Source: a virus. From it: a stretch of 41,298 nt of DNA. The stretch is from positions 1 to 41,298 of the IMG/VR virus record IMGVR_UViG_3300030329_002402; one strand, 5' to 3'. How positions within the stretch are numbered: position 1 is the stretch's first letter; every line of letters starts with the position of its first letter. The notes beneath the pieces are model-generated. The model did no database searches. It had not been told where the DNA came from and saw nothing but the letters and a program-made list of their open reading frames with translations. Position numbers and translations under genes: made by a program. Below are positions 635-32,910 of this stretch, one piece after another.

Positions 635-645
635 TGTCATCTCCC

Positions 646-946: not shown

Positions 947-975
947 ATTCTAACACACCTAACATTAAGACGCAA
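947..975 (-). promoter_or_regulatory. Candidate leftward sigma70-type promoter
   Basis: On the minus strand TTGCGT (970-975) is separated by 17 nt from TAGAAT (947-952). Transcription would begin about 35 nt before the ATG at 903. The -10 matches consensus at five of six bases, while the -35 matches only its TTG. The position between divergent operons supports the call. Confidence 0.4.
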
Positions 976-1606: not shown

Positions 1607-1607
1607 A

Positions 1608-10585: not shown

Positions 10586-10606
10586 ATTAAATTAGGGGAT
10601 ATCAAT

Positions 10607-10801: not shown

Positions 10802-10812
10802 AGGAGATAGTT

Positions 10813-11850: not shown

Positions 11851-11879
11851 TAAACTTATTAAAACGGAGGGACAAATAA

Positions 11880-14957: not shown

Positions 14958-17314
14958 TGCTCAGTTTTGATTCCGCGCTAAGTGAACCGTTAAAATTAGG
15001 TAACACTACAGCCTTCTGGGTCTTAAAACTGTATTATAACGATGATTCAAGCTCGTCTAATTTTATCGGGGTAAGCGACCAGCATCGCGTTGATGGGTCT
15101 GATATATATTACGGGATAGTCAGATCATGGGGTGAATACAATCAGTCATGTGATTTTTTCGATTTCTCGACATCTACGGGGTCAATGTCGTTGACATTAA
15201 TTAATTCATCTGATGCTATTAATGGCGGTCGATTCAGTGATTTATTTTCATCATATAATTTTGCTAATCGAAAATGGGAACTATTCTTAAATACGAATAC
15301 TGCCGGGACTTATGATACGGCGGCCCGAATGATAGGGACAGGTATTATTTCGGGTAATATAGATTATGATTATAAGTCGATAAAATTCAGTCTCTTAGAC
15401 AACAGTAATAAAGTCCATAATCAAATTCCGAAAAATGTAGTCGACTCAAGCACATACACAAATGCCCCGAAGGGTAATATCGACAAGCCTATCCCGATTA
15501 TGTACGGCGACTGCTCTGCTGATGCTGTAGCTTTAGCATCAGGAACATCTGGTAATTTTGACCACCATTTTACGAAAGGTAAATTTCCGGCAATTATTAC
15601 AGATAAGTGGAATAAGTCGGCGGCGCAAGTATATGCACAGCCCGATTCTGTTACAGTCAACGCTCTTTCAGATGAAAATATTTTTTCATATAAGGATGGA
15701 TTTTATTACCAAGTCAATGGGGCCAATGCAGATGAGTCAGACTCAAGCTACCGCGTCGATTTTAGCGGGGTAGATTGGAGGGTGTTTATACCTCTGTCTG
15801 CACATTCTACGGAGGGTGATGTTTCTAATTTTGATAATACCGTTGATGGTGATTTAACAACATCAGGTTCCTTACTTTCTCAAGGGAGTAAAGGATATAC
15901 TGTTGATGCTTATTGGAGAATCCCAAAAGTGCCAAATTTGGGAATAATTGATTCCATTTATTTTGTAATTCATTATAAAGACTTCACACCGGATTCGGGT
16001 GGAGCCGGAATAGATATTAACGAATTTAGAGTAAGAGTTGGATCGCATACCTACGAAGATTTGACATGGGGAACTGGTGCAGGTAGTCAGGCGGTTACAG
16101 ATGCGAGTTGGTTCACCGATGCAGAAAAGGAGGCGTGGAACTTAGAAGATTTTATTCAACTTAATCTCCACGCTGGAGCCGATACAAGTACAAATCATAC
16201 TTTGGAAATTTACCAGGCTGGGTTAGAAGTAAGATTTTCACCAAGCCAAACCTTTGAAAAGCAAGTGACAGATTATTATGAAATTTTAACTGGAGAGACT
16301 CAGTCAAACATAGCCTACCGGGATACAAAAGGGGCTGACGGTGTGGCCATAAGAAAAAAAGTTGCCCGTACAAGGACTGTATCCACCCCGGATGTCACCG
16401 ATTATGTTTATGTGTCGGGGAAGGGTCGTGAATATGGGGCGTGGATTGATACGGTAAATTCTGGAGCAAGAGATGGCCAGAACGGTGGATCAGCAGACCC
16501 TAATTACGCATCGGGCGCGTTAATTGAGAACCCTATTTACATGATAGAGGATCTTCTGAGAACCGAATTAGGTCTTGATGGCAGTACAACAGGGGTAGAC
16601 ATTGATATTGAGACATTCGATTTTGCCGGTGCAGGCCAGACAGGTTCATCAACAAAAGGTAAAATATCATTCCTATTCAACGACGCAGTCGCCGACATCA
16701 AATTTGCATTTTCACAGTATAAATTTATCAATTCGAAAGACTTAATAAATAAAATATGCCGTCAATGTATGAGTTTTGTCTGGTTTTCAGGGTCTGGAAA
16801 ATTTAAAATAAAAACACTTTTATTACCCTCAGATACATGGGACTTAGATGATACTGTCGATTTTAACTCAATTAACATAAAAAGAATTGGTCGGTCCCCA
16901 CTAAATAATGTCAGAAATAAAATCATTGTTAATTACGCTTATGACTATGCGCGAGATAAAATGATGGAAAGCACAAATGTAACAGACTCCACATCAGCAG
17001 GCACCACCGTAAACGGCAATAATTCAACGCTGACGCTCGAATTAGATGCTGACTGCATACTGGACTCCACTACAGCAGATAACCTCCGTAACGCATATAA
17101 AGCCCATTATAAGGATCGGAAAGTGGTTGTTGATTTTGATATCGTCACTCCTAAGCACTCAGCTCTTGAGATAACAGATTTTATCACATTCACAAACTGG
17201 CCATCAGATCTAAAACTATATGGTACTGCATTTAATGCAGATGTTTTTATGATTTTTGACATCAGTAAAAAAATAAATTCAACATCAATTAAAGCAATAA
17301 AGGTAGATGAATAA
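14957..17314 (+). CDS. Tail tip or baseplate hub protein candidate
   Basis: This 785-residue protein comes directly after the tape measure. It starts MLSFDSALSEPLKLGNTTAF at an ATG overlapping the tape-measure stop (TAATG); an upstream in-frame GTG at 14942 is less likely. Residues about 155-185 contain GNIDKPIPIMYGD, a pattern I associate with marine siphophage tail hub proteins. Beta-rich domains and a C-terminal segment on dimension-type strands follow (about 600-780). Distal tail, hub and fibre-attachment genes are expected here. There is no visible peptidase motif. Confidence 0.6.
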   Translation: MLSFDSALSEPLKLGNTTAFWVLKLYYNDDSSSSNFIGVSDQHRVDGSDIYYGIVRSWGEYNQSCDFFDFSTSTGSMSLTLINSSDAINGGRFSDLFSSYNFANRKWELFLNTNTAGTYDTAARMIGTGIISGNIDYDYKSIKFSLLDNSNKVHNQIPKNVVDSSTYTNAPKGNIDKPIPIMYGDCSADAVALASGTSGNFDHHFTKGKFPAIITDKWNKSAAQVYAQPDSVTVNALSDENIFSYKDGFYYQVNGANADESDSSYRVDFSGVDWRVFIPLSAHSTEGDVSNFDNTVDGDLTTSGSLLSQGSKGYTVDAYWRIPKVPNLGIIDSIYFVIHYKDFTPDSGGAGIDINEFRVRVGSHTYEDLTWGTGAGSQAVTDASWFTDAEKEAWNLEDFIQLNLHAGADTSTNHTLEIYQAGLEVRFSPSQTFEKQVTDYYEILTGETQSNIAYRDTKGADGVAIRKKVARTRTVSTPDVTDYVYVSGKGREYGAWIDTVNSGARDGQNGGSADPNYASGALIENPIYMIEDLLRTELGLDGSTTGVDIDIETFDFAGAGQTGSSTKGKISFLFNDAVADIKFAFSQYKFINSKDLINKICRQCMSFVWFSGSGKFKIKTLLLPSDTWDLDDTVDFNSINIKRIGRSPLNNVRNKIIVNYAYDYARDKMMESTNVTDSTSAGTTVNGNNSTLTLELDADCILDSTTADNLRNAYKAHYKDRKVVVDFDIVTPKHSALEITDFITFTNWPSDLKLYGTAFNADVFMIFDISKKINSTSIKAIKVDE

Positions 17315-18420
17315 TGAGTTATAATAGAATTTTAAAGCCAAGAGCCTATGTGGATTTTATGCAATTTTTATATGGGATGGGATGGGCTACGCCGGGGAAT
17401 TTAGGCTATGGTTCGGGAACTGATATAGCAAGCACCCCAGGGGCTAATTTAATTCAGGATGACGGCTCGACTGCTGTTACACTTGACTCCGGCCATATAA
17501 TGAATCTATTTGATGGGCATCCGAATAATTATATTCAGGTAGCACATGATACGAAGGCTTTTTGGATTACCTTAAACACTGGTTTAGCTTCGCCCAACGC
17601 GATGGCAGGCACAAGTTTTATCGCTTTTTTAAACCATAATTTCGCATCTGCTGACGCAGTTATTAAAGTTGAGGCTGATGATGTCTATAATATGACAGGG
17701 ACTCATATTATTACGACGACAGGCAATCATACTAAATTAATCAATGCCGCCGCCGATGCTGGTTCTGGATACATAGATCCGGCTTATGATGGTTGGACTC
17801 TTATTGAGTACCCTGTCCGTGAGGGAGCCAACAATCAATATATCAGAATTACGATTGAGGATGATGGTGGAGCTGGCTCAAACTTCGATGAGGATGTAAT
17901 CATCGGATCAGTTTGCTGGGGAGAATTTCACGATTTTCAAAGGGTTAATATGAGCGCGAGGACAGCTTATGATTATGATGGCGTAGATTTAGTCGAGAGT
18001 TATGGAGGCCAAACATTTTCAAATAGTAGACATTCCGGGCCTCCTATGTGGTACAGGGTTCCAGCGTGGTCAAACTATTGGGGAGATGGGAGTTCAGCAT
18101 CTACATACACATTCGGTCAACGGACAGGGCGTAAATCATATTCTCTTGATTTTGATTATCTGGATGACTCAGATATATTCCCTGAATCAGGTTATTTAGA
18201 CTATTCAGCCACGAACCTCGTCTGGGATGATGATTCATTATTTGGGCGATTTTTACGAAAAACGCTTGGATCTCATAACCCATTTATATTCACCCACGAC
18301 AGTACATCTACATCTGAGGGCGATTATGGTTACTACAGGCTTACAGATAATGGATTCTCAGCCACCCAGGTGGCTCATCAGATGTGGAATGTCGGATTGA
18401 ATTTTCGCGAGTCTTGGTAA
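17314..18420 (+). CDS. Distal tail or minor tail protein candidate
   Basis: This 368-residue beta-rich protein begins MSYNRILKPRAYVDFMQFLY. It overlaps the hub candidate by one base. Segments such as WITLNTGLASPNAMAGTSFI and SCWG-like strands alternate with loops rich in Gly, Asp and Tyr, as in carbohydrate-contacting tail proteins. The C-terminus (QVAHQMWNVGLNFRESW) resembles the final strand of tail-tip proteins that join a ring. It is the last gene before the terminator at 18424. Specific function is not determinable. Confidence 0.5.
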   Translation: MSYNRILKPRAYVDFMQFLYGMGWATPGNLGYGSGTDIASTPGANLIQDDGSTAVTLDSGHIMNLFDGHPNNYIQVAHDTKAFWITLNTGLASPNAMAGTSFIAFLNHNFASADAVIKVEADDVYNMTGTHIITTTGNHTKLINAAADAGSGYIDPAYDGWTLIEYPVREGANNQYIRITIEDDGGAGSNFDEDVIIGSVCWGEFHDFQRVNMSARTAYDYDGVDLVESYGGQTFSNSRHSGPPMWYRVPAWSNYWGDGSSASTYTFGQRTGRKSYSLDFDYLDDSDIFPESGYLDYSATNLVWDDDSLFGRFLRKTLGSHNPFIFTHDSTSTSEGDYGYYRLTDNGFSATQVAHQMWNVGLNFRESW

Positions 18421-19617: not shown

Positions 19618-19794
19618 ATGGATGTCTTAAAACCTAAAAATGGGTTCAGACTACAGGTCTTACTTGGTGACGATCAGGCTCTTAGAAGTGAGTTTTTAAT
19701 AGCTTGCAAGCGGATCAACAAGTCGGGCAGTTCGGTCATCATTAAGTTGATGAAGGAGTTTATCGCGAAGCAGAAGGGTAAAAGCGGTGAATAA
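19618..19794 (+). CDS. Ribbon-helix-helix type DNA-binding protein (58 aa)
   Basis: The translation begins MDVLKPKNGFRLQVLLGDDQ. A short strand (FRLQVLL) is followed by a helix (ALRSEFLIACKRI), a turn with Gly and Ser, and a second helix (SSVIIKLMKEFIAKQKG). This is the plan of Arc/MetJ-type ribbon-helix-helix regulators. An ideal AAGGAG site lies 6 nt before the ATG. It overlaps the next gene by 8 nt. As the first well-initiated gene after the strong promoter, it may repress that promoter, possibly through the AACAATT repeats. Confidence 0.6.
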   Translation: MDVLKPKNGFRLQVLLGDDQALRSEFLIACKRINKSGSSVIIKLMKEFIAKQKGKSGE

Positions 19795-20161
19795 GCATCA
19801 GGAAGAGGCGAGTTTTCAGGCTAAGATCAAAAAAACAGCCATTCGCAATTACCTATTCAGCTACTCTGGGCATGATAATCCACTCACATCGTCGAAATTA
19901 CAGTCGATCTTTCATGTGGGTGATGTGGTAGTTCGGCAGGCGATTGGCCTGTTGCGGGATGACGGCGAACCGATCGGGAGTTGCTCAAAGGGCTTTTTTT
20001 ATGCTAAAACGCCAGATCAGCTTGAAGGCACACTAAATGACTTCAGAAGCAGGATCGGGGCATTATCAATGCGTTTACGGGCTTTAGAGGGTACTTATGA
20101 CAGAATGGATGGTAACAAACCCCAGCAGGCCCTATTTAAAGATATGGAGGTGGTTAAATGA
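19787..20161 (+). CDS. Winged-helix DNA-binding protein
   Basis: The 124-residue protein starts at a GTG. It contains PLTSSKLQSIFHVGDVVVRQ (about 32-51) and then IGLLRDDGEPIGSCSKGFFY, a helix-turn-helix followed by a wing. A coiled segment follows (FRSRIGALSMRLRALEGTYD). This architecture recurs in phage early operons near recombination genes and probably regulates them. It overlaps the next gene (ATGA). Confidence 0.7.
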   Translation: MNKHQEEASFQAKIKKTAIRNYLFSYSGHDNPLTSSKLQSIFHVGDVVVRQAIGLLRDDGEPIGSCSKGFFYAKTPDQLEGTLNDFRSRIGALSMRLRALEGTYDRMDGNKPQQALFKDMEVVK

Positions 20162-20712
20162 GCGAAAAATATATACCTAATGACCTTGATGAATTTTATT
20201 ATAACGTAGCTGACGATGATGTTAATTCAATGGAGAACAGCCACATTGATCCTAAGAAGGCGGATGCTTTGCTGTACTGCATCACGAAAGAGAGAGAAAA
20301 GATCAATAAAATAAATCAAGAGGCATCAGATCAGATCGTAGCGATCGGCGAATGGCGTGACTCGATAGTCGCGAAGCACGAAAAGTCGATCGATCACATG
20401 ACTGCTGGCCTACAGGAGTTTTTTAGCAGGCTGGTGGCTAACGATCCAAAATTAAAAACAAAATCATTTCCGAATGGAGTGATGAAATTACGGAAGCAAC
20501 AACCTCTATTGATTATAGAGGATGAAAATAAGTTTTTCAGCAATTTAAAGAACAGGGCAAATTTTACGATACATACCGAGAAGGTAAAACCTGACAAAAA
20601 AAAGATAATGGCGCATATTAAATCTACCGGCGAGATACCACCTGGTTGCAGAATATCAATACGAAATGATAAATTTTCAATAAATACAAATGAGGGACGA
20701 AATGACAAATAA
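20158..20712 (+). CDS. Mu Gam-like nuclease-inhibitor family protein
   Basis: The 184-residue protein has a long N-terminal coiled coil (about 40-75, REKINKINQEASDQIVAIGE). A compact domain follows with TKSFPNGVMKLRKQQP (about 101-116), VKPDKKKIMAHIKSTGEIPP and GCRISIRNDKFSI. This order matches Gam-type host-nuclease inhibitors, which coat double-stranded DNA ends, and the related siphovirus Gp157 family. I cannot separate the two by eye. It is adjacent to a Rad52-like annealase, as expected for a phage recombination module. Confidence 0.65.
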   Translation: MSEKYIPNDLDEFYYNVADDDVNSMENSHIDPKKADALLYCITKEREKINKINQEASDQIVAIGEWRDSIVAKHEKSIDHMTAGLQEFFSRLVANDPKLKTKSFPNGVMKLRKQQPLLIIEDENKFFSNLKNRANFTIHTEKVKPDKKKIMAHIKSTGEIPPGCRISIRNDKFSINTNEGRNDK

Positions 20713-21670
20713 TGAAGGTTTTAATTTAGAAATACAGAATGCACTGCGCGAACCGACACCCCACGAACGGGTGAACTTTCGCGTGGGCTTTAAAAATCAG
20801 GAGAAGGGTTACGCCATTATGCTGGCCTATATCGATGCTCGTTATGTACAGGATCGGCTCGATGAAATTGTAGGAGCATCTAATTGGGAAGTAGAATACA
20901 TCGAAGTCGCCGGCAATATGTTCTGCGCTATTACGATACGCTGGCCAGAGGGACAAGTGACCCGTAAAATGGATGTCGGTATAGAAACTGATGTCGAGAA
21001 GGAAAAAGGTCAGGCATCCGATGCGTTTAAACGCTCTGCTGTTATGTATGGAATCGGCCGTGACCTATATGGATATCCAAAACACTATGCAGACTTGGAT
21101 TCGGGGGGGAAAGTCCCCTACGATTGGAAACCTGCGGGCTGGGGTGACACACCATCAAATGGTCGCGATAGTGTCATGTCTGGCGACCAGATAAATAACA
21201 CAACTAACCCCAGCCCCCCTCCTAAAACGTCGATGAAGCAGGCCGATGTGGCTCAGAAACCGGATGAGGAAGAGACTTTAAAGGAGATGGCAGATAGAGT
21301 CACCCGGAAAGCCGCCGAGACTGCGCCGGATAAATTCCCTGAAGGTTACGATGATAAGGGCTTAAAAACAGGGACGCCGCCAGAGCAACAGTTCGTTCTG
21401 GTGAAAAACCTAAAGGCTAAAATGACTTCGCAAAAAGGGGCGGTTCTATACATTCCCCCTGAATATAGTGGTGATATGGATGATCGCGCCGCTACGAAAA
21501 AATATTGGGTTGGGGCAGGAGAAATTCAAAATGAGGACGCCAATATGAACGGACTATTTAATGTGACGATTAAACGGTGGAAGGCTGAACAGAATGGTTA
21601 TGTGTATGAGGAACTTTCTGAACAAGCAGATGAACCTGTAACTCTTAGTGATGACGATCTGCCCTTTTAG
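20702..21670 (+). CDS. Rad52-like single-strand annealing protein with SSB-like tail
   Basis: The 322-residue protein has a Rad52/Rad22-type domain at about 18-135. Visible segments are RVGFKNQEKGYAIMLAYIDA, RLDEIVGASNWEVEY and QASDAFKRSAVMYGIGRDLY. It anneals complementary DNA strands during recombination and replication. A long polar linker follows, then about 85 residues that could form a small beta domain. The C-terminus, SDDDLPF, resembles the DDDIPF tip of bacterial SSB, which recruits partner proteins. The ATG at 20702 has GAGGGACG upstream, so it is preferred over 20690. It overlaps the Gam-like gene by 11 nt. Confidence 0.8.
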   Translation: MTNNEGFNLEIQNALREPTPHERVNFRVGFKNQEKGYAIMLAYIDARYVQDRLDEIVGASNWEVEYIEVAGNMFCAITIRWPEGQVTRKMDVGIETDVEKEKGQASDAFKRSAVMYGIGRDLYGYPKHYADLDSGGKVPYDWKPAGWGDTPSNGRDSVMSGDQINNTTNPSPPPKTSMKQADVAQKPDEEETLKEMADRVTRKAAETAPDKFPEGYDDKGLKTGTPPEQQFVLVKNLKAKMTSQKGAVLYIPPEYSGDMDDRAATKKYWVGAGEIQNEDANMNGLFNVTIKRWKAEQNGYVYEELSEQADEPVTLSDDDLPF

Positions 21671-21672
21671 GT

Positions 21673-21954
21673 GTGAAACAGGCCAAGTTTATTGTCATCC
21701 CGGCCACGGTCAGGGCCGATAGAAGTCTGCCTGATGGTGCTAAGATACTTTATGGAGACATTAAAGCTCTATCAAATAAACACGGCTACTGTTTTGCCTC
21801 CAACGGGCATTTTGCCAAATTGTTTGGAAAAACTAACATAACAATATCAAACTGGATTTCTAAGCTGAAAAAAGCTGGATATATTTCGATAAGTTACAAC
21901 CCGCACCGGAGGATTTTCATTGCGAAAAAACAAAAAAATAGCCCATCGGATTGA
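21673..21954 (+). CDS. Helix-turn-helix protein, HTH_36 type
   Basis: The 93-residue protein starts at a GTG and includes DRSLPDGAKILYGDIKALSN, then FAKLFGKTNITISNWISKLK. This matches the HTH_36 domain found in replication initiators and regulators of mobile elements. The usual C-terminal domain of replication proteins is absent. It may act as a small regulator or a truncated replication protein. It overlaps the next gene by 35 nt. Confidence 0.65.
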   Translation: MKQAKFIVIPATVRADRSLPDGAKILYGDIKALSNKHGYCFASNGHFAKLFGKTNITISNWISKLKKAGYISISYNPHRRIFIAKKQKNSPSD

Positions 21955-22111
21955 TGACCATAATGGCGTCATTCAGCAGTATCCTAAAAAGATGCGCCAT
22001 CCCCACAGGCATGGATTCGTGTGGGATGACGACGCTACAGACAAACAATTCCCATTGCGCTGGTATACTAATTTACCTGCAATCGTTAAACTGGTATATA
22101 TCGATGAATAA
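21920..22111 (+). CDS. Small hypothetical protein with TTG start (63 aa)
   Basis: The frame starts at TTG 21920, preceded at 7 nt by a strong GGAGG that lies inside the end of the HTH gene. No ATG or GTG is available in the first 24 codons. It encodes a basic, His-rich protein (HRIDDHNGVIQQYPKK, MRHPHRHGFVWDDDAT) of unknown function. It overlaps the methyltransferase start by 8 nt, which suggests translational coupling. Confidence 0.55.
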   Translation: MRKNKKIAHRIDDHNGVIQQYPKKMRHPHRHGFVWDDDATDKQFPLRWYTNLPAIVKLVYIDE

Positions 22112-23015
22112 AATACTCCAGGGGCATGTATTAGATCGGCTTAAAGACTTAAATAATGAGTCAGTCCAGTGCGTTGTAACTTCGCCTCCGTACTGGAACC
22201 TCCGAGATTATCAAAAGGATCATCAACTCGGACTTGAACTAACACCAGAAGAATATGTAGAGAACATGGTCAAGGTATTTCGTGAAGTAAAAAGAGTATT
22301 AAAAGACGATGGGACGGTGTGGCTGAATTTGGGGGACACTTATAATAGTGGCAGAGACGGAGGTCATGCTGGAGGCTCAAAACAAAATCACCCCAAGTAT
22401 CTCCAGAGAAGCGGAGCAAATGTTAGTGGTCTAAAACCCAAAGACCTTGTTGGTATTCCGTGGCGAGTTGCTTTCGCATTACAGGCTGATGGATGGCATT
22501 TAAGACAAGATATTATATGGCATAAGCCTAACCCTATGCCAGAGAGTGTTCAGGATAGATGCACTAAATCACACGAGTATATATTCTTATTAACGAAGTC
22601 GGCCAAGTATTTCTATGATAATAATGCTATCAGTGAACCCTGTGATTATCCAAATGAAGGCAAATGGGGAGGAGATAATAAAGGATACGATGGCAACCAT
22701 ACAATGAAGGCACGGAATTTATTGGCTTATCGAAATGGTGAAAAAAGAAACAAACGATCTGTATGGGCTATTAACACAAAGCCCTATAAGGACGCTCATT
22801 TTGCTGTATTCCCACCCAAATTACCCGAGTTGTGCATTAAGGCTGGTAGTAGTGAAGGTGACACCGTTTTAGATCCGTTTTTCGGTAGCGGCACAACAGG
22901 CTGGGTGGCCCAAAGATTAGGCCGTAAATGGATAGGGATCGAACTCAATCCAGAATACATAAAAATAGCAGAAAAGAGGTTTGATCAGTATGAATTATTT
23001 TCGGCAAATAAATGA
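22104..23015 (+). CDS. Beta-class DNA amino-methyltransferase (N4-cytosine or N6-adenine)
   Basis: The 303-residue protein carries the catalytic motif TSPPYWNLRDY near residue 25 and the S-adenosylmethionine-binding motif LDPFFGSGTTGWVAQRLGRK near 255-275. Catalytic motif before cofactor motif is the beta-class order. TSPPY is found in both N4-cytosine and N6-adenine enzymes, so base specificity is open. The start is set at MNKILQGHV (22104), because the frame upstream is an unsupported extension over two other genes. No restriction partner is adjacent, so it is a solitary phage enzyme that probably protects its DNA. It overlaps the C5 enzyme gene by ATGA. Confidence 0.88.
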   Translation: MNKILQGHVLDRLKDLNNESVQCVVTSPPYWNLRDYQKDHQLGLELTPEEYVENMVKVFREVKRVLKDDGTVWLNLGDTYNSGRDGGHAGGSKQNHPKYLQRSGANVSGLKPKDLVGIPWRVAFALQADGWHLRQDIIWHKPNPMPESVQDRCTKSHEYIFLLTKSAKYFYDNNAISEPCDYPNEGKWGGDNKGYDGNHTMKARNLLAYRNGEKRNKRSVWAINTKPYKDAHFAVFPPKLPELCIKAGSSEGDTVLDPFFGSGTTGWVAQRLGRKWIGIELNPEYIKIAEKRFDQYELFSANK

Positions 23016-24142
23016 AGATGCTCGATCTATTTTCAGGCATCGGCGGATTCTCACTGGCGGCCAGTTGGGTCTGGGGCGATGATCTTGAGATTGCGGGATT
23101 CTGCGAGATTGATGAATACTGCGAAAAAGTGCTTAATAAGAATTTCCCTGGAGTGCCAGTATATAAAGATATTACACAATTAGATGGAAAACAGTTTAAA
23201 AACATTGATCTTATTACCGGCGGGTTTCCGTGCCAGGATATTTCGGTAGCGGGAAAAGGGAAAGGATTATTTAATGAAGAAACTGGAGAAAAAACACGAT
23301 CCGGTCTTTGGGTTGAAATGCTTAGAATCATTAGCGAAGTACGACCCAGATACGCACTTATTGAAAACGTTCCAATGCTCACTGTTCGAGGAGGAACCAG
23401 AGTCATTGCTGACCTTACCGAAATCGGGTATGACGCATCGTGGGATATTATATCGGCTCAAGACCGGGGAGCATTGCATAAAAGAGCCAGAATCTGGATT
23501 GTTGCCTACCCCGACCTCGGGGATATACAAACAGGACGTAATGGATTCCGGGGAGTATGCTCGAAAGATAGAGAAAAAAGGACATCAAATAATGTTACCA
23601 GCCGCAGTAAAGTTAAAGCAAACTTTTCCTACCCCAAGAGCTCAAATGACAAGACCGGTGAAAATAAGAGAAGGTGGGCATCGTTCCAATCTGGAAGAGG
23701 TGGTCGCAGAGAGAATGTTTCCGACTCCACAAGCATCGGATTATCAAGAAAAACCGACAAGCAAATCGTGGAAGGCGAAGGGAGGGGTGAATTACTGTCT
23801 GTCAAACCCGGAAATTCAAGAACAATGGAAGAAATTTCCAACTCCAACAGGAAGCGATCACAAAGGATGGAGTCGCAATCACAAAAGAGCCAACGATCCG
23901 ACAAACAGACTGGACTTCAGGGTGGAACCGGAAACGGGGGTTGGTGGGACGTTGAACCCCGAATGGGTTTGTTGGCTGATGGGGTATCCACCGAATTGGC
24001 TGGATGTTGGGATCGAGAACCAGACATCCCCAGAGTCACAACAGGTATCAAAGACAGAATCCATAAATTGCGAGGACTCGGAAACGCCATAGTGCCTCAG
24101 GTGGCTTATTATATTATGAAAAAGTTACATACTGAAATTTAG
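23012..24142 (+). CDS. dcm-like: C5-cytosine DNA methyltransferase, with a dual-coded target-recognition region
   Basis: The 376 residues show motif I LDLFSGIGGFSLA (4-16), motif IV GGFPCQD with catalytic Cys74, motif VI ENV (118-120), motif VIII HKRARIW (156-162) and motif IX/X RIHKLRGLGNAIVPQ (349-363). The enzyme methylates cytosine in DNA. The region between motifs VIII and IX, where the target recognition domain lies, is low in complexity (rich in S, R, K, N, Q, G). It has four spaced repeats: VAYPD (164), FSYPK (205), VSDST (236) and ISNSN (275). This stretch is also an open frame in the +1 frame. The first codon overlaps the previous stop. Confidence 0.9.
   Translation: MKMLDLFSGIGGFSLAASWVWGDDLEIAGFCEIDEYCEKVLNKNFPGVPVYKDITQLDGKQFKNIDLITGGFPCQDISVAGKGKGLFNEETGEKTRSGLWVEMLRIISEVRPRYALIENVPMLTVRGGTRVIADLTEIGYDASWDIISAQDRGALHKRARIWIVAYPDLGDIQTGRNGFRGVCSKDREKRTSNNVTSRSKVKANFSYPKSSNDKTGENKRRWASFQSGRGGRRENVSDSTSIGLSRKTDKQIVEGEGRGELLSVKPGNSRTMEEISNSNRKRSQRMESQSQKSQRSDKQTGLQGGTGNGGWWDVEPRMGLLADGVSTELAGCWDREPDIPRVTTGIKDRIHKLRGLGNAIVPQVAYYIMKKLHTEI
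23274..24092 (+). CDS. Nested gene in the +1 frame of the C5 methyltransferase
   Basis: An open frame of 272 codons lies wholly inside the methyltransferase gene. It contains ESLAKYDPDT, KTFQCSLFEEEPESL, LPKSGMTHRGILYRL (about 48-62), four PTP motifs (78-80, 119-121, 150-152, 189-191), and near the end GGTLNPEWVCWLMGYPPNWL (224-243). I know these motifs from stand-alone phage and bacterial proteins found with C5 methyltransferases, so this is unlikely to be a chance frame. AAAGGA lies about 8 nt before its ATG. Function is unknown. It may be a partner or specificity subunit, which is a guess. Confidence 0.72.
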   Translation: MKKLEKKHDPVFGLKCLESLAKYDPDTHLLKTFQCSLFEEEPESLLTLPKSGMTHRGILYRLKTGEHCIKEPESGLLPTPTSGIYKQDVMDSGEYARKIEKKGHQIMLPAAVKLKQTFPTPRAQMTRPVKIREGGHRSNLEEVVAERMFPTPQASDYQEKPTSKSWKAKGGVNYCLSNPEIQEQWKKFPTPTGSDHKGWSRNHKRANDPTNRLDFRVEPETGVGGTLNPEWVCWLMGYPPNWLDVGIENQTSPESQQVSKTESINCEDSETP

Positions 24143-24415
24143 TTGTTTGATTACTGTAAAATAAAAGATAAGAAATGTGTGTTTGCTACGGAGTCTACGT
24201 ATGACCCTGAAGTAGATGATTATCTATGGGAAACATATACGTTTTGCGGTGCAATGGTTGGTTCAGTAGATATAAGGGTAGATAATTTAAGCCTCTGCTG
24301 GCTGGATATGAGTAATAGTCAAAGGACTAAGCACATGAAAAAAATCAACAATGAAGTCATGCCTAAACGTGGTTACTATTATGACAAAGTAAGGAAAGGG
24401 TGGTTCAAGGCTTGA
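24143..24415 (+). CDS. Small Cys-rich hypothetical protein with TTG start
   Basis: This 90-residue protein begins right at the stop of the C5 methyltransferase (TAG then TTG). No ATG occurs before residue 38. It has Cys residues near both ends of its first half (DYCKIKDKKCVFATE, YTFCGAM, LSLCWLDM), a spacing suggestive of metal binding, and a basic C-terminus (YYYDKVRKGWFKA). I do not recognise it. It is the last gene with left-part composition. Confidence 0.45.
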   Translation: MFDYCKIKDKKCVFATESTYDPEVDDYLWETYTFCGAMVGSVDIRVDNLSLCWLDMSNSQRTKHMKKINNEVMPKRGYYYDKVRKGWFKA

Positions 24416-24475
24416 ATTTGGATATAAATATCTTTCAGTATTTAACATAGGTAAAGTTACAAGGGATAATATATT

Positions 24476-24796
24476 ATGAAGAAAGAATTAGCAATAAAAC
24501 TAAAAGAAAAAGCTGAAGACATAGCAAAGAAATTCAGCATATCAGAACGTGATTTCAACTTTTCTAATGAAACGTTTAGTGTTAGCTCTATCACACCACT
24601 AAGTGAAACAACTGCGAGTGTAGAGTTTAAGAAATCCTCAGGTAAGTATGGCGTTGCCTTTTGTTACTGGATTAATATGGGCGGTGGTCAGTGGCGATAC
24701 TTCTTCCCAACGTACGATCATTGTATTGGAGCAGAGAAACTTAGAGAAGTACTCCATGATGTAGAGAGGAGAAACTTCCCATTGAATTTTAAATGA
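24476..24796 (+). CDS. Hypothetical protein paired with the endonuclease gene
   Basis: The 106-residue protein begins MKKELAIKLKEKAEDIAKKF and has an alpha-beta plan with a GKYGVAFCYWINMGGGQW core. The family is unknown to me. It overlaps the endonuclease gene by ATGA, so they are translated together. An AAGGG site lies 10 nt before the ATG. Its AT-rich composition resembles the right part of the window and differs from the genes just upstream. Confidence 0.5.
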   Translation: MKKELAIKLKEKAEDIAKKFSISERDFNFSNETFSVSSITPLSETTASVEFKKSSGKYGVAFCYWINMGGGQWRYFFPTYDHCIGAEKLREVLHDVERRNFPLNFK

Positions 24797-25206
24797 TTGA
24801 TACCACTACTAAGGGTGGTATAGGTGAACTCGTAGTAGCTATAGATTTATTAAAGAAAGGATGGACGGTATTCTTTCCGATAGTAGATAACACAGGCTGT
24901 GATTTAATTGCGATGAAAGATAACGTAATTAAAACAATACAGGTTAAGTTTCATACCAAACCAAGCTCAGGTTCATCAGGTTCTATTAGTATAGATATGA
25001 GAAAGCGTACAGGCAGGAAGAATATTATCTCATGTAAGTGTAACGTAGTTGCTGTTCCATTGCAGAAGAAAGAATTGGGGATAGATACTGTAGTTTATAT
25101 ACCATACAACGGAGAGATAACGTTGTCCATTGCATTTAAGGACGCTAAGAATAACCAGACTTCAAAGCGTAGGTGGTATAAAGATTTCCTTGATGTGCCT
25201 ATTTAA
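24793..25206 (+). CDS. PD-(D/E)XK endonuclease family protein
   Basis: The 137-residue protein has KGGIGELVVAIDLLKKGW (7-24) with Glu12. It continues TGCDLIA with Asp37, and IQVKFH with Gln50 and Lys52. This E-D-QxK arrangement matches the PD-(D/E)XK fold as seen in the family of the intron endonuclease I-Ssp6803I and in related phage nucleases. No intron or split gene is visible around it, so it may be a free-standing homing or exclusion nuclease. It ends 2 nt before the stop of the convergent giant gene. Confidence 0.7.
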   Translation: MIDTTTKGGIGELVVAIDLLKKGWTVFFPIVDNTGCDLIAMKDNVIKTIQVKFHTKPSSGSSGSISIDMRKRTGRKNIISCKCNVVAVPLQKKELGIDTVVYIPYNGEITLSIAFKDAKNNQTSKRRWYKDFLDVPI

Positions 25207-25208
25207 TA

Positions 25209-28200
25209 CTATGGATTAAACTTATTTAGTTCTTCCATTGTAAACATTTCATCAAGTAAATCCATACGTTTATAAAATATTTCCATCAACTCTTTTGTAT
25301 CTTTCTTATGTTCTTCAGATAATTGGTCTGTAAAAGCCTTATAAAATAATTGACCGCCAGCTTGATCATCCCAATCTTCAGGATAGGGTCGCATTGAAAC
25401 TTTAATAGATGATCTAATTCTACTATTAATTTCCTTTATAACGTCACTTACTGCAAATTCATCACCTTTAGCCCCCCTGCGTTTAAACTCCTCATGTACA
25501 AGAAATGATCGGGTTTTTATAAAATCATTTTTAAGTTGCTGTATATCTCCACCCATACGCCCATTTGACAGTAGTGATTCTTTTAGAATCTTAACCCAAA
25601 AAGCATTTTCATTTATCTCACCCTTGCTAATAAGAGCCGCAAAAGAACTCTTTCTTTTTCCGTCTAAGTATGGGTACTTATCAACAAACTGATACTGTAA
25701 TCTTCTTTGGTCATCAAACTTTTTATTAATATCTTCATTTCTTTCTTCATATATACTCATTACCTGATTTAAAAGAGAGACATTCTTTCTTGTATAATCA
25801 ACACCAATTCTTTTCATAGCCTCAACATCACCCATCGCACCAATTTCATTCTTAATAAAATTTAAAAACTCAAACCCAAACTCTATTGGTACTGGTATGT
25901 ATCCATCTATTACATTGTTACCATAGTTATCATATAGATTACTGAATACACCAAGCATTTCTCCCTTTACGGCATAATCAATAAACTCCATCTCTTTATC
26001 TTTAAAATCTTTACCTATTAAATCTTTACCAAGTGCCATATTATAATAGTAATCATACACAGTTTTACCAGTTAAACCAGACATGGCAGCAAACTTCATC
26101 ATCGGGAATGGGTTACCGTCAACAACAAGGGGAAGTATAGCACGGTTATATGTGTTTTCTGTGACACGATAAGCAGTTCTATAAAATAATGTAAGTGGTT
26201 TTGATGCACCTTTAGCCATCCATAATGGGATATATGGAAGTTTAGTAACACCCTGCGTTGAAGCTTGTGATTTATACAGCGCACGTTTGTATAAGTCTCT
26301 AAACTTACCATCAGTCAGTACAAGATTGTCAAAGTTTTTTGATCTTAGCTTAGACATCATATAATCTATGTCTTCATTTTGTATCTTCATTGCATTTCTT
26401 AAAGCGTCACGTGCTGACCGCTTACTTTTAAAGAAGGCACTCTTTTTATTTAATAACAAATCAAATGAATCCCTTATGGCTGAGTCTGTAACTGCTACAG
26501 ATGCCCTACGATTAAATTTCTCTATAACTTTGAATGGCTGTGACAGTAGACCAAATGCTTTACCAGTAGGGGTTTTAAATTCCATTGAAAGCTCATCAAT
26601 ATTACCGCTAAGTGCTCCAATTTCATTGGTTAGTCTTTTGTATTTACTGTAATCTCCCGTAAGAATATTATAATAAGATTTAAAAACTTTCCCGAAACCA
26701 TACGATGTAATATTTTGTGTCTGACCTGTCATAAAGTTTTTTATAACAGCACTCGGACCTGATAAATAAACATTAGCTAAAGCTTTGCTTACAAACTTAC
26801 CAGATTGAGTCCAAGGGGTTATATCCTCACCGCCTAATGAAAGTTTTACAACTTCCTTAGCCCAGTTGTAAGTATCCCTATCATAATTATTACGTAACTT
26901 TACCAGCAATGGTGACGCTATCTTACCGGAAACTCCATCAGCATCAAAGTTTCTGAATAGTGCAACTGAATTTGATACCTGATTAGAATACTTCTGCATT
27001 ATTGTTGAAAAATCTTTTTCATAAAACTCTATAACCTCACCAATAACACGTTCCCTACCATCAATATCTGTAATTGATGAACCTATTTTAACCTTAGATA
27101 TGTTAGGAACTTCATCAAGTTGTATCATTGCATTAGTACCTTTTTCAACAAGAGCGTAAGGGGGTATGTCAAATTTTCTTGTGTTCAATATACCAAGAGG
27201 TTTGTTGCTTTCTGCAAATTCAATGTAATTATTTATTAATACAGCAAGGTCTTTTTTAGAAACGCCGGGATTCTGTGCCTCTAATATTGAAATGAACTGA
27301 TCTCTGTTTTTCTTAAAAAATGTTTTACCTCCATCAGTAAGAAATCTTGGAACATAATTTTCTTCATACAAAGACTCTGATAATGTTTTATTTATATCTA
27401 CTTTAACTTTCTTACCATCAGTATTTGTGACAAATGATTTCCTCTTCTTTAATATCTTTAACATATCTCCATTATCAAAAGATTCATCTGCAACTTTAAC
27501 CTTGTTACCTGCTGTATCAAAAACAGTAAGCAATGGTTTAAATATATCCTTACCCTTCTTACCACTACGAGCATCAACTCTTGCCTCAACATTATTTCTT
27601 ACCCCAAGCAGAAAAGTATTATCCATGAAATCTCTTTGTTTCTTACTCAGTTTGGCAAGTTTTTTCTTATCCCCAAGCTTTGCAACGCTACCCTCTGGTA
27701 TAAGCTTATTAATTTTTGAATCATTCAAACCGTAGGTAAGTGCATCAAAATCAGTGCTCTTACTAAAACCAAAGTCAGATATAAGATCATCAATAAATAC
27801 AGTAAATCTACCACGTACGATCTCTTTTGTATCTGAGTGGTCAACAAGCTTTCTTGATAGTGTAGCTCCTTCAACTCCAAGCTCATTCAGATTTGATTCA
27901 GGTGAAAAAACAGCACGCTTAACAAAATTTCTTATAGCTCCTACAGTTGAAGACTTCCCAGCAAGAACATCCAACGGCTTTGTTAATGGTATTGCAGTAT
28001 TCAGTTGTGCTTTTTCTATGGATGTATAATTTCTTTTAGACCTAAGCATCTTATCATACGTCATCATCTCTTCCATATTCATGCGGTCTGTAGTTCCAAA
28101 TGATTTAGTAAAGGCACGCCTCTTAAGCATACTCGCATCTTTTTTTGACATCCCCAAAGATTCTTCAGACTTTAAAATCTTATTGGCAAGTTTTTGATGG

Positions 28201-29909
28201 TCTTGATAGGCAAGTTTATTAATTGTTCTTAGTTTTAATCCTGATTTAAAGTTTAAAGGATTCTTTTTAAAGTAATCAACTGAGAGTTCTGTCTTATCTG
28301 GCAGTACGTTCTTATATTTTTTAAAGAAACTGTTTAAAACACCTTGCCTATTCACACCCTGCATCGTAAATGTATTATTTGCTACTCCATCTCTATCATT
28401 TAATACAAGATAAGAAAGAACGTGTTTCTTATTTTTTGCTTCCTTTACTCCAAGCAGCTGAACTACTTCATTAGGATTTGATTTATTTACAAATCTATTT
28501 CTAACGTACTCAGGTCTTTTTGTACTTAAATAAGTCTTCATAACATCTATTGATTCATTCGCAGACTTAATAACTTTTTTCTGTACGTTCTTATCGCCTA
28601 TAGATATTTCTACGCCTTCTTTAATTGCCTGTTTAATTCTTATTTTATCAGCACCTACCCCTATGTAATGACCTGCTGTGAATAGAGCACCCGTCATAAG
28701 ATGATCTGTAATGCCAGCATTTTCAGTAGGCTCTATACCAGCACCGCTAAGACTTGCTCCAAAACCCGCACTAAAAGCTAATGATGATTCAAGTGCCAAT
28801 GCTTTCTTAGTGGAACCCTGCAATGTACTTAACTTCGCTAACCCAAACGCACGTGGTAGTCCAGCCGCAGTAAAGAATAACCCATCTAAAAATGGTTTGG
28901 TAAGTCGTTCCTTTACAAAGAACTCATCATTTTCACCAAGCGGTATGGTTTTTTGCATAAATATACCTGAAGCAACCATATTATTAATACCAGTATCAAT
29001 AGCATTGGCTACCTTTATTCCTTTTTCTGGATCAAATTTAAATTTATGAGGTTTAATTCCCTTAATACGTGACATAAATTTTCCAACTTCATACTCACCA
29101 GAACCTAATTTAGTTACAAATTTTCTATAGTTTTGAGACTTACCTAATAATGTATTCTCTTTTATAACTCCAGCCTTTGATAGTATCTGATCTGTTTCAA
29201 TCTCAAGATTATTAGCACGTGTCATCAACTCCTTAAACTTACCAGACTTACCCTTAGCTTTCTTTATAACATTAGCATTCTTACGCAACTTTTCTATCCG
29301 TGTATACATTTTAGACGCGTCAGCTAATGCCTTTGTAGTCTTCACACCTGTGCCAACTATTTTTAAACCACCAAGTATACCACCAGTAGCAAATAAACCA
29401 ACACCAAATCCAGCAATCTGACCAACCGCACCAGCAACCTGATCAGACAGGTCTTCGCTTGGCATTATATCTTCTGTGAAGTCAACCCCAAGTGTTCCGG
29501 CTGGTAAGGGACTAAGCCCTTCTAAAAAGTTTCTTGCAAAACGTTCTATTACACCGGGGTCGCTTTGCATATTTTTGTGATCACCCTCTACAAATCTATC
29601 GTATTGATCAATAGTACTTAGAGGGACGTAATTAGTTAGCTTAGTTTTCTGTGGTAATTCTTCTTCAGGCTCTTCATCTACTAAGTTTATACTACTGAAG
29701 AAGTCTGAAGATACAACATCTTCTTCGTCTATTAAGTTTATATTGCTAAAGAAGTTTTCAGGGACAACGAAAGCAGACTCTTCTTCATCGTCTACTAAAT
29801 TTATATTATTAAAAAAATCTAACGGTGGTAGTAGAATATCCCCCGGCTCAATAGATGGATCATGTTCCTGTAAGGGTGAACCAGAAAATGGTTGATCTCC
29901 ATTTGACAT
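25209..29909 (-). CDS. Giant internal virion protein candidate (1566 aa)
   Basis: The protein is long, mostly helical and Lys-rich. Residues 29-81 carry three tandem copies of FFxxINLxDEE (31-42, 51-63, 69-80) in an acidic disordered tail. A Gly-rich hydrophobic stretch (about 131-167, GAVGQIAGFGVGLFATGG) could insert in membranes. Further Gly/Ala segments lie about 340-400 and 1290-1330. No lytic transglycosylase, polymerase or protease motif is visible. Large last genes of this kind in podoviruses form the ejected internal core. It is the final gene of the leftward block; TAGGT precedes the ATG by a few bases. Confidence 0.65.
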   Translation of the reverse strand: MSNGDQPFSGSPLQEHDPSIEPGDILLPPLDFFNNINLVDDEEESAFVVPENFFSNINLIDEEDVVSSDFFSSINLVDEEPEEELPQKTKLTNYVPLSTIDQYDRFVEGDHKNMQSDPGVIERFARNFLEGLSPLPAGTLGVDFTEDIMPSEDLSDQVAGAVGQIAGFGVGLFATGGILGGLKIVGTGVKTTKALADASKMYTRIEKLRKNANVIKKAKGKSGKFKELMTRANNLEIETDQILSKAGVIKENTLLGKSQNYRKFVTKLGSGEYEVGKFMSRIKGIKPHKFKFDPEKGIKVANAIDTGINNMVASGIFMQKTIPLGENDEFFVKERLTKPFLDGLFFTAAGLPRAFGLAKLSTLQGSTKKALALESSLAFSAGFGASLSGAGIEPTENAGITDHLMTGALFTAGHYIGVGADKIRIKQAIKEGVEISIGDKNVQKKVIKSANESIDVMKTYLSTKRPEYVRNRFVNKSNPNEVVQLLGVKEAKNKKHVLSYLVLNDRDGVANNTFTMQGVNRQGVLNSFFKKYKNVLPDKTELSVDYFKKNPLNFKSGLKLRTINKLAYQDHQKLANKILKSEESLGMSKKDASMLKRRAFTKSFGTTDRMNMEEMMTYDKMLRSKRNYTSIEKAQLNTAIPLTKPLDVLAGKSSTVGAIRNFVKRAVFSPESNLNELGVEGATLSRKLVDHSDTKEIVRGRFTVFIDDLISDFGFSKSTDFDALTYGLNDSKINKLIPEGSVAKLGDKKKLAKLSKKQRDFMDNTFLLGVRNNVEARVDARSGKKGKDIFKPLLTVFDTAGNKVKVADESFDNGDMLKILKKRKSFVTNTDGKKVKVDINKTLSESLYEENYVPRFLTDGGKTFFKKNRDQFISILEAQNPGVSKKDLAVLINNYIEFAESNKPLGILNTRKFDIPPYALVEKGTNAMIQLDEVPNISKVKIGSSITDIDGRERVIGEVIEFYEKDFSTIMQKYSNQVSNSVALFRNFDADGVSGKIASPLLVKLRNNYDRDTYNWAKEVVKLSLGGEDITPWTQSGKFVSKALANVYLSGPSAVIKNFMTGQTQNITSYGFGKVFKSYYNILTGDYSKYKRLTNEIGALSGNIDELSMEFKTPTGKAFGLLSQPFKVIEKFNRRASVAVTDSAIRDSFDLLLNKKSAFFKSKRSARDALRNAMKIQNEDIDYMMSKLRSKNFDNLVLTDGKFRDLYKRALYKSQASTQGVTKLPYIPLWMAKGASKPLTLFYRTAYRVTENTYNRAILPLVVDGNPFPMMKFAAMSGLTGKTVYDYYYNMALGKDLIGKDFKDKEMEFIDYAVKGEMLGVFSNLYDNYGNNVIDGYIPVPIEFGFEFLNFIKNEIGAMGDVEAMKRIGVDYTRKNVSLLNQVMSIYEERNEDINKKFDDQRRLQYQFVDKYPYLDGKRKSSFAALISKGEINENAFWVKILKESLLSNGRMGGDIQQLKNDFIKTRSFLVHEEFKRRGAKGDEFAVSDVIKEINSRIRSSIKVSMRPYPEDWDDQAGGQLFYKAFTDQLSEEHKKDTKELMEIFYKRMDLLDEMFTMEELNKFNP

Positions 29910-29923: not shown

Positions 29924-31294
29924 CTATCCAATACCCTGTTCTCTTGCCATTGTCTCAGCAAGTCCATAAAGACCAACACTCGAAAGAAAGTCAATAGTTT
30001 TTTGACTATTCCAAACACTCTTGGGTATATTTAATGTTCCAGTTTCTTCATCTCTATACTTACTAAAGTATTGAGCAACTTTAGATTTTAAATCCATATC
30101 GTAAGTTGCATTCATCACCCTCTGAAATCTTCGTGTTGTTAATTTATTCGTTCTAAATAGCTGTTCTGGTTCCGCCTCTACTATTTTTGGCTCAACCCCA
30201 CGACCAAGTGCTACATCTAATTTGTCCTTTAGTGTAGTTGGTTTCGCTTCACTTGTATCTTGCTGTAGAATCTTTTTAGTTTCTTTTTCTATACGTTGTT
30301 CTGTTTTTATTTTTCCAACCTTAGCACCATGCTTAGCACCACCTTTAGTAATCTCAGCACCAAACAAATTCATACTGTCAAGTTTTCTCCCAAGTTCAAC
30401 CACTCGTTCACCAGCTTCTTTCCTCCTATCATTAGAAAAATTCAAATTTGCCTCTACTGTCGCCCATTGAGCCATTCCCTTAACTAAAATATCTGCCTTA
30501 GATATTTTAGTTTTTAAGTCTTCAAAGTTTGTTAGTGGCAGAGCCTCTTTAGATGATGTTAAAAGTAAATCATTATAAGATTCTGGACCAGCAACCATAA
30601 GCTTATCAAAAAACATACCTTCTTTTAAATGTGGAAAAGTTTCATAAAACTTATCTTTTCCAAGGGCTTGAGCACTGTAATAAGATTTATACTTAGTTAA
30701 ATTATTTGATTCTGTTTTTAGCCTCTCATCTAATTCCATACTAAAACTATTACTTGGTTTTATATTGGCATACTCTTTAAGTAGATTTTGATCAGTAGCA
30801 CTAAAAATATTTTTATCTTTTAAGGTTTGTTCTATTGCTATTTTTCTATTCCATTTCACTTTTTCTGCATCAAATCTATGTCGAAAAGCCCTTTTATTAT
30901 TAATACCTCTTACGCCTTTTAGTAATTCACTAAACTCTTTTTCTCCTACATTACCAAAGTTATCAATATCCTTAATAAAACTAATAGATTCTGTATTAAG
31001 TTGAGTATCTTCTCTAAATTTACTATCAGCTTTTGCCTGATTTAACGTTGCATCCCTGTAAGCATTCTGACTTGAAATCTGTTCCATCTTAACACGTGCA
31101 TCAAGAGCATCTTTATTACTCTGTACATAGGCATTTTTTATTTGAATACCAAGGTTTCCAAGGAAAGATGCTAACACTTGCTCAGTTGATGGTGGCTGTT
31201 CAGGTTCTAAATATACAGGATCATAGTCCACTAACGTATTTCTTCTACGCTGTGGTAGCTGTGATAGTATCTGTGATGGATTAAACTGTGCCAT
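29924..31294 (-). CDS. Internal virion protein candidate (456 aa)
   Basis: The protein begins MAQFNPSQILSQLPQRRRNT. It is mostly helical and charged, with long coiled stretches about 60-330 and a C-terminal helical domain (TTRRFQRVMNATYDMDLKSK). No enzyme motif is seen. It lies between a Gly-rich protein and the giant gene in the order expected for podovirus internal core proteins. A good AGGAG site lies 7 nt before the ATG. Confidence 0.6.
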   Translation of the reverse strand: MAQFNPSQILSQLPQRRRNTLVDYDPVYLEPEQPPSTEQVLASFLGNLGIQIKNAYVQSNKDALDARVKMEQISSQNAYRDATLNQAKADSKFREDTQLNTESISFIKDIDNFGNVGEKEFSELLKGVRGINNKRAFRHRFDAEKVKWNRKIAIEQTLKDKNIFSATDQNLLKEYANIKPSNSFSMELDERLKTESNNLTKYKSYYSAQALGKDKFYETFPHLKEGMFFDKLMVAGPESYNDLLLTSSKEALPLTNFEDLKTKISKADILVKGMAQWATVEANLNFSNDRRKEAGERVVELGRKLDSMNLFGAEITKGGAKHGAKVGKIKTEQRIEKETKKILQQDTSEAKPTTLKDKLDVALGRGVEPKIVEAEPEQLFRTNKLTTRRFQRVMNATYDMDLKSKVAQYFSKYRDEETGTLNIPKSVWNSQKTIDFLSSVGLYGLAETMAREQGIG

Positions 31295-31308
31295 ATATTA
31301 ACTCCTAC

Positions 31309-31926
31309 TCAAATTAATACCCAACCTGTTCCAGGTTGAAATTCCCAATTTCTACCCATAGAGTCTTTATATGTTTCCCCATCTCTTGGTGTGCCAGTAT
31401 ATCCAGTAGGGATAAAGCCGTCATCTGGTTTAGTATAACTAAATATATCATAGTCTGTTTGACTCTGAAAACGTGTAAGTAACTCTGCTAACTGATCCTG
31501 ATAACCAACACGTTCACCACGTATACCGGATGTAAGATCAAGAAGAGCACCTTTAAAAGCCTGACCGTAGCCACGTTGTATATCTTCACGTGCTCCACCT
31601 ACCTGAGCACCAATAGCACCACCGCCAGCAAATCCTGTAGCACCACGTTGAAGTCTTGCACTTGAAGTAATACCTCCAAGCTCACCTACTGATGATTGAT
31701 AAGCACCTGACACTCCTTCAGAAAACTGTGAACGATATAATTCTTCTGAGTAGGGATCGTACTCAGGTATCATACTGCCATATGTAAGACCTGTTTTAGG
31801 ATCAGTCTTACCTAAAAAATCTTCAGTAGGCATACCAATACCTATATCGGTATAGGCTTGCCCTGTACTGTAAGGATCAGAAAATGATCTATAATATTCG
31901 TATGGATTTACTGTACCGTTAGACAT
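31309..31926 (-). CDS. Gly- and Tyr-rich virion protein (205 aa)
   Basis: The protein begins MSNGTVNPYEYYRSFSDPYS. The middle is Gly/Ala-rich (GATGFAGGGAIGAQVGGARE, about 95-114), which may be a membrane-active or packing segment. The C-terminus ends in NWEFQPGTGWVLI. I do not recognise a family. It directly follows the stop of the previous gene (TAA then ATG) and lies within the internal-virion cluster, so a virion role is inferred. Confidence 0.55.
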   Translation of the reverse strand: MSNGTVNPYEYYRSFSDPYSTGQAYTDIGIGMPTEDFLGKTDPKTGLTYGSMIPEYDPYSEELYRSQFSEGVSGAYQSSVGELGGITSSARLQRGATGFAGGGAIGAQVGGAREDIQRGYGQAFKGALLDLTSGIRGERVGYQDQLAELLTRFQSQTDYDIFSYTKPDDGFIPTGYTGTPRDGETYKDSMGRNWEFQPGTGWVLI

Positions 31927-32910
31927 TTACTTTAAACCTGTAAAATTAAATATAGGTTGCTGAAAGAACGGTTTTGTATACATACCACTAACAGGCTTAT
32001 TAGAACCAAATAGGTTTCCCATTTGAGCCTGTCTGAGACCACGCAGATAAAGAGGCTTTGCACGTCCTATAACTTCTTTATTCTGCCAGTATTCATGATC
32101 GTATAAATTTGGCGTAAAAGAACCTAACGTTGGTCTACCCCGCATAGAAACTTCAGGAAGTATAGGATCAGAAAATATATTTTTCAAATTACCAACAGCA
32201 CTTGCGGCTAAATCCTGCTCGTATGGTGATGCGCCACCAAGTAAACTGCCAACTGATGGCTGTAATGATTTCATGTAATCATAAGATAACTTATCGAAGG
32301 CACTGGCACCTTCTACTGGCTTAGTTAAATATTGTTCACCAAGAGGTTTATTTAAAAATTCTTTAGTTCCCTTACCAAGACCTCCAGCCTGACCTGCGCT
32401 AACTATGGAACTGCCTACATTAATAGCAAAATCTAATATAGCTTTTTCTTTATCTATTCTACCGCTTTCAATAGCCTGTTCTCTTATATCTTCAGCACCT
32501 TCAGTAACTCTACGTGCCTCTTCACCAGCAAATAACAAATTTTCAAGAGGTTTTGTATAACCAGTATCAATACGTTTTGCGCTCTTTATATACTCAGCTT
32601 TCTCCTTGCCTTCTTGAGCACCAGCTAAGGTGGTACCTATAAGACCTAATGTACCAGCCACTGCTGCGTAAGGCTGAAGACCGGGAACTTTAGCGGCGTA
32701 GGATGCTAAAGTAGTTAGCCCACTGAATAACTTCTTCCAAGAACCCCACTTCTTAGCCTTTCCACTACGAGATTTTTTTTCTTTATTATATCTCTTAATA
32801 GAAGCTTCTATATTGTCAACAGCGAGTTGTAATCTCTCACGTTCTGACTGACTTATACGTGATGCAGCTATTGCCGCTCTTGCTCCTGTTGATCTTGTAC
32901 GTAATGCCAT
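31927..32910 (-). CDS. Internal virion protein candidate (327 aa)
   Basis: The N-terminal third is a basic coiled coil (SERERLQLAVDNIEASIKRY, about 21-40). A hydrophobic Gly/Ala segment follows (PYAAVAGTLGLIGTTLAGAQ, about 80-99), then helices about 110-190 and a Pro/Gly-rich C-terminus. Basic coil plus hydrophobic helix is typical of small proteins ejected by podoviruses. A promoter-like sequence lies in the 73-nt gap upstream. There is no clear ribosome site. Confidence 0.55.
   Translation of the reverse strand: MALRTRSTGARAAIAASRISQSERERLQLAVDNIEASIKRYNKEKKSRSGKAKKWGSWKKLFSGLTTLASYAAKVPGLQPYAAVAGTLGLIGTTLAGAQEGKEKAEYIKSAKRIDTGYTKPLENLLFAGEEARRVTEGAEDIREQAIESGRIDKEKAILDFAINVGSSIVSAGQAGGLGKGTKEFLNKPLGEQYLTKPVEGASAFDKLSYDYMKSLQPSVGSLLGGASPYEQDLAASAVGNLKNIFSDPILPEVSMRGRPTLGSFTPNLYDHEYWQNKEVIGRAKPLYLRGLRQAQMGNLFGSNKPVSGMYTKPFFQQPIFNFTGLK

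Follow-up and report, generated by a model that had tools for sequence, protein, structure and literature searches.

Two unlike phage halves joined at a Dcm-type methylase gene in an IMG/VR contig that is probably chimeric

Gene content of the two halves

The IMG/VR record IMGVR_UViG_3300030329_002402 is a linear contig, 41,298 bases long, which was analysed over its whole length (hereafter, the window). Its plus strand carries a siphovirus structural block from 1,049 to 18,420, comprising scaffold, capsid, an S74-type fibre, an endolysin, tail genes, tape measure, and tail-tip genes. Downstream come genes for Gam, an Erf-like annealing protein, and a DnaD-like protein, as well as two DNA methylase genes and three small genes (Table 1). 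A late block occupies the minus strand from 25,209 to the contig end and encodes a giant structural protein, a 1,042-aa protein, an M15 endolysin, and a second, cut fibre. The initial annotation of this DNA had described a siphovirus-type half meeting a podovirus-type half tail-to-tail, either as a mosaic genome, as one phage nested in another, or as an assembly chimera. The two unlike halves are real; the position of their join and its meaning need correction. By gene assignment, the tape measure, scaffold/capsid, and Gam/SSAP genes place positions 1-23,015 in a siphovirus family, and the nozzle, confirmed by its fold, places positions 24,143-41,298 in a podovirus family.

Table 1. Features of the window with their positions, strands, and supporting evidence
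Feature	Position	Strand	Evidence
Small genes upstream of the scaffold gene	1..975	-	Homologs of 3-209 (n=13) and 646-975 (n=2), only in siphovirus-family loci
Scaffold-like protein and major capsid protein	1049..2495	+	Capsid at 1608-2495, PHROG 267 major head protein, E 3e-48
S74-type tail fibre, siphovirus half	3793..6648	+	PHROG tail fibre matches; middle common to podovirus fibres
Endolysin	7925..8458	+	PHROG 315, E 5e-36; 76-77% in siphovirus-family L200-L202
Head-tail, tail tube, and tail assembly genes	9108..12634	+	Collinear homologs in G029/G033, 53-87%
Tape-measure protein	12609..14957	+	PHROG 1533, E 4e-62; absent from 20 podovirus-family records
Tail-tip/baseplate genes	14942..18420	+	80+ relatives, all siphovirus-family; in 15/18 large records
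Early genes: HTH-like, Gam, Erf-like SSAP, DnaD-like	19787..21954	+	PHROG matches; order kept in G029 at 38-62%
Adenine-type DNA methyltransferase	21951..23015	+	PHROG 67, E 1e-83; closest homolog 66%, siphovirus L181
Dcm-type cytosine methyltransferase, probable hinge of the chimera	23012..24142	+	PHROG 363, E 2e-72
Small early gene, podovirus-family	24143..24415	+	61% in L219, 33-42% in other podovirus-family loci; none in siphovirus-family loci
Small conserved protein, 106 aa, paired with nuclease	24476..24796	+	75% in podovirus L219
PD-(D/E)XK nuclease, converging on the giant structural gene	24793..25206	+	PF11645, E 4e-12
Giant structural protein	25209..29909	-	99% in L002, 47% in G018, 39% in L219
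Structural genes between giant protein and nozzle region	29924..32910	-	Homologs in podovirus-family loci only
Predicted podovirus tail nozzle, 1,042 aa	33730..36858	-	AF2 model, pLDDT 73.7; Foldseek; 79 relatives
M15-type endolysin, lysis cassette	37274..37669	-	PHROG 465, E 1e-40
S74-type fibre, C-terminal part, cut by contig end	40464..41298	-	PHROG 4636, E 7e-43

On the left, the tape measure and the fibre named in the initial annotation are borne out, the fibre being S74-type, and a capsid gene and an endolysin are present as well. The capsid has 32 IMG/VR relatives at 74-96% identity, none of them among podovirus-family loci, and its relatives in isolate phages are all distant (24-26%). 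The window begins 1 kb before the scaffold gene, and TerL and portal genes could lie outside it; in the related contig G029, a RuvC-like gene, TerL, and a portal-like gene lead back to the scaffold gene. A small reversed patch of genes follows the tail-tip block and is a feature of the siphovirus family, given that contig G033 carries a homolog (65%) of the minus-strand gene 18515-19003 at the equivalent position. When the whole DNA was searched against isolate phages, nothing matched beyond one methylase stretch. Within the adenine methylase, 22452-22593 shares 82% DNA identity with dam of Prochlorococcus phage P-SSM7 and with Marine virus AG-345-P14. Host assignment via bacterial and archaeal genomes returned no result for either half.

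On the right, the M15 endolysin and the second S74-type fibre also hold, as does the nozzle on the strength of its fold. By sequence, the protein encoded at 33730-36858 has no convincing family match. The top PDB matches of its model in Foldseek are podovirus tails and nozzles (SU10, cyanophage A4, VP1, Pa223, Pan3, Sf6 gp8, and P22 gp10), at E-values of 7e-12 to 1e-5 and with low global TM-scores. Because this predicted fold matches podovirus tail proteins first, the right block is podovirus-type, in line with the initial annotation; across 24143-41298, a nozzle-type tail protein is present and a tape measure is absent. The gene previously read as encoding an internal-virion-type protein does exist as a giant structural gene, but an HMM search of 25209-29909 allowed no internal-virion (core) function to be assigned, and its product may be internal-virion-like judging by size and position. 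Podovirus TerL, portal, capsid, and replication genes are absent from the right block, as would be expected if the window covers such a genome only in part. In the comparison of L002/G001 with 25209-32969, identity to G001 is 97% over 25209-31294 and ~85% thereafter, the protein of 31309-31926 being 66% identical; the drop past 31294 may reflect recombination inside the late block of the podovirus.

Two families and the genes they share

Each half was sought in other genomes, and each was found without the other. The long contigs G029 (3300030329_002232, 34.5 kb) and G033 (35.8 kb), together with G035, stand for an uncultivated siphovirus family (contigs of 35-44 kb) that carries the block 1-21954 collinearly (capsid, fibre, lysis, tape measure, tail-tip, Gam, SSAP, and DnaD genes), with G029 and G033 having TerL and portal-like genes of their own, but does not continue into the podovirus late block. 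An uncultivated podovirus family, including G018 (3300030330_001508), G007, G020, and G043, resembles 24143-41298 in gene order, in its nozzle, and in having small early genes that converge on a giant late gene. It differs from the window in that its contigs of 41-50 kb combine the right block with their own TerL, portal, capsid, and replication genes, and have no tape measure. Isolate relatives of this family were not found by tblastn of the nozzle, the giant protein, and the portal. Each half matches a different lineage that is complete without the other half.

Nor were the two families found to mix. The nozzle yielded 79 loci, and the siphovirus tail gene together with the capsid yielded more than 110; over all fetched loci, siphovirus-only markers occurred in 140, podovirus-only markers in 100, and both in 0, with some overlap among the 140 and 100 so that they do not represent independent genomes. 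Among large podovirus records, the tape measure was found in 0 of 20, and the nozzle was found in 0 of 18 large siphovirus records, though 15 of these 18 did carry the siphovirus tail gene. These counts bear on the view that the record is a single ordinary phage whose right block is an odd siphovirus module. The fibre, holin-like, and lysis genes that the two halves and the two families have in common favour it; however, the 33730-36858 protein folds as a podovirus nozzle, and the family to which it belongs lacks a tape measure and brings a portal, TerL, and capsid of its own. Tested as ordinary siphovirus parts, the right-block proteins came out negative, and we attach almost no probability to a single ordinary phage, which is refuted, as far as the collections searched go, by the marker counts and the nozzle fold.

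Fibre and lysis genes are common to both families. Inside the window, the two fibre genes form an inverted repeat of 402 nt with 81-85% identity (5484-5885 versus 40897-41298), the right arm of which reaches the last base of the contig; within it, 5484-5840 and the inverted 40942-41298 are 85% identical. The podovirus contig G043 matches the siphovirus fibre over another 809 nt at 84% (window 4574-5361). Fibre segments move between long- and short-tailed phages of the source community. Holin-like small membrane proteins, M15 and other endolysins, and small neighbouring genes (37274-40206 and 6678-8676) are also common to both families. Since fibre genes, lysis genes, and a mobile Dcm methylase are shared, both families probably use the same or similar hosts.

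Position of the join

The convergent meeting at 25,206/25,209 had been taken as the boundary of the two halves, with a 2-nt gap and no terminator. The gap is present and no terminator-like site was found, but the genes at 24143-25206 belong with the right block. In podovirus locus L219, the homologs of the 24476 and 24143 genes (Table 1) face the giant gene as they do in the window, and in G018/L087 the nuclease faces the giant gene with one small gene between them. Locus L002 is 97% identical to the window at the DNA level in the giant-gene region, and this identity stops exactly at the giant-gene stop codon, which at first seemed to support a join at 25206/25209. That candidate was overturned by the last 88 bases of L002, which hold the coding sequence for the C-terminal end of a related nuclease, convergent at the corresponding position (score 42 versus 20 +/- 3.5 for shuffles, a value reached by 0 of 500). 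The 2-nt meeting is therefore native podovirus architecture, an ordinary boundary of early and late genes. Because the arrangement is native in L219, G018, and L002, the gap and the lack of a terminator are unrelated to the join, and the foreign join must lie further left. As a two-gene unit, 24476-25206 recurs across more than 20 contigs from several kinds of phage (first protein 54-75%, nuclease ~30%).

Base composition leads to the same region. A fall in GC had been noted from ~24.4 kb onward; the fall is indeed sharp (0.42 to 0.35), but the maximum-likelihood change point lies at 24,100-24,105 (range ~24,020-24,160), with GC and canonical 2-, 3-, and 4-mers in agreement, and so at the 3' end of the Dcm gene. 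The interval 24415-24476, originally proposed for the join, is ~0.3 kb too far right and was rejected, as 24143-24415 and its neighbours are podovirus-family genes and composition switches earlier. By nearest relatives, the genes up to 23,015 are siphovirus (L181, G029), those from 24,143 rightward are podovirus (with the caveat that genes like 24476 and the nuclease occur in other phages too), and Dcm alone stands between. Taken together, these sequence comparisons bracket the join to 23,012-24,143, inside or at the edge of the Dcm gene.

The Dcm gene overlaps by 4 nt with the adenine methylase, which is the last siphovirus-assigned gene. Its first 99 aa are 97% identical to podovirus G043 (89% at the nucleotide level over 99 codons). 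Homologs occur in siphoviruses (L250, L143, and L129) and at three places in podoviruses, namely before TerL (L251-L255 and L257), against the late block (G019 and L090), and in the early region (G043); podovirus homologs occur throughout L251-L257. By this distribution, the Dcm-type methylase is a mobile accessory gene common to both families. Residues 176-330, a putative target-recognition region, match almost nothing among the fetched sequences. Comparing segments of the gene to each family gave no clear switch point. The 24143 gene has a TTG start flush with the Dcm stop where its homologs start with ATG, which fits a join there but does not prove it. Given that identity to G043 begins 5 nt before the Dcm ATG, a join at the 5' end is possible; a switch inside Dcm or at its end is favoured by its GC and by the 4 nt that it shares with the upstream methylase, and the bracket is accordingly set to span the entire gene.

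Origin of the composite record

We consider it probable that the record is a chimeric contig, produced as an assembly artefact via a shared gene; most likely, ~23 kb of a long-tailed phage have been spliced to ~17-18 kb of an unrelated short-tailed phage. Among the possibilities raised initially, the assembly chimera is thus the one that is well supported, by two unrelated families, the 140 and 100 loci with no case of both, and a join in a shared gene. The join lies in a gene common to both families, as does the right contig end, and a crossing inside one shared gene with an ending in another is what an assembler yields at a shared repeat. Bases 1 to ~23,015 would derive from a siphovirus and ~24,143 to 41,298 from a podovirus of the same kind of community, and the assembler (or an amplification step) would have crossed over within the shared Dcm gene, going in on siphovirus sequence and coming out on podovirus sequence. 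The join leaves every reading frame intact, presumably because the crossing went through this shared gene. More generally, a methylase gene common to two genomes is a likely crossing place for assemblers. Taken at face value, the record describes one phage equipped with both tail types, and IMG/VR-based gene-sharing networks and taxonomy would be distorted by it.

The source metagenome, 3300030329, holds contigs of both families separately, namely siphovirus G029, the capsid of which is 96% identical to that of the window, and podovirus G043. The latter (3300030329_003399, 26,635 bases) carries TerL, portal, capsid, and a replication region, stops 299 bases into a Dcm gene, and has its other end inside a fibre gene, ~120 bases before the start of the window's cut fibre in fibre coordinates. 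By their sequences, the right part of the window and G043 look like complementary pieces of such a podovirus genome, their breaks falling in the same pair of shared genes.

In simulated viromes, fewer than 5% of contigs with a length of at least 10 kb were chimeras (PMC5610896), so that such artefacts are rare but expected. The chimeric viral-metagenome contigs of that study resemble the present case in that two genomes are fused where co-existing viruses have similar sequence; they differ in that the parents here are unrelated phage types, the shared stretch is one mobile gene, and the join is known from the contig alone. Several findings speak against a chimera. The search for a parent contig that matches either half identically across the join was negative; the closest Dcm gene has 89% DNA identity, and we therefore infer an exact stretch common to both parents in the source sample. 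In addition, the join breaks no gene and keeps the 4-nt methylase overlap, as real recombination would, and fibre genes have moved between these families, so that exchange does happen.

The same findings would suit a real recombinant, in which homologous recombination in the shared Dcm gene of a co-infecting siphovirus and podovirus joined a siphovirus structural and early half to a podovirus late half. The join is seamless and lies in a gene carried by both families, fibre DNA that is 84-85% identical across families and homologous lysis genes show exchange, and a published report describes hybrid phage contigs obtained from cloned marine DNA (PMC3861242). Such a product would, however, hold two full tail systems, which no other record does; moreover, the visible part is without any terminase or portal gene, and more than 25 kb beyond the contig would be needed to complete the podovirus part. 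We regard a real recombinant as unlikely, and it is more doubtful still that the contig is part of a replicating phage of >65 kb that combines long- and short-tail structural systems through recombination in the shared methylase. Lambdoid-style phage mosaics keep one head and one tail module. Their modules are swapped at gene boundaries, as in the window, but two complete tail types in one genome are not their usual outcome.

A nested arrangement, with the podovirus integrated in the siphovirus or the reverse, would account for both parts being only partly visible, as the outer genome could continue past either end. The search of annotated genes and repeats in the window yielded no integrase, attachment-like repeat, or tRNA, however, and the podovirus part starts in the middle of an early region beside a convergent late block rather than at a genome end, and is without all its replication and head genes. 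We judge a nested phage or prophage very improbable and retain the assembly chimera as the preferred reading. As by-products, the analysis brought to light two uncultivated phage families, one long-tailed and one short-tailed, with common fibre and lysis genes and a mobile Dcm gene.
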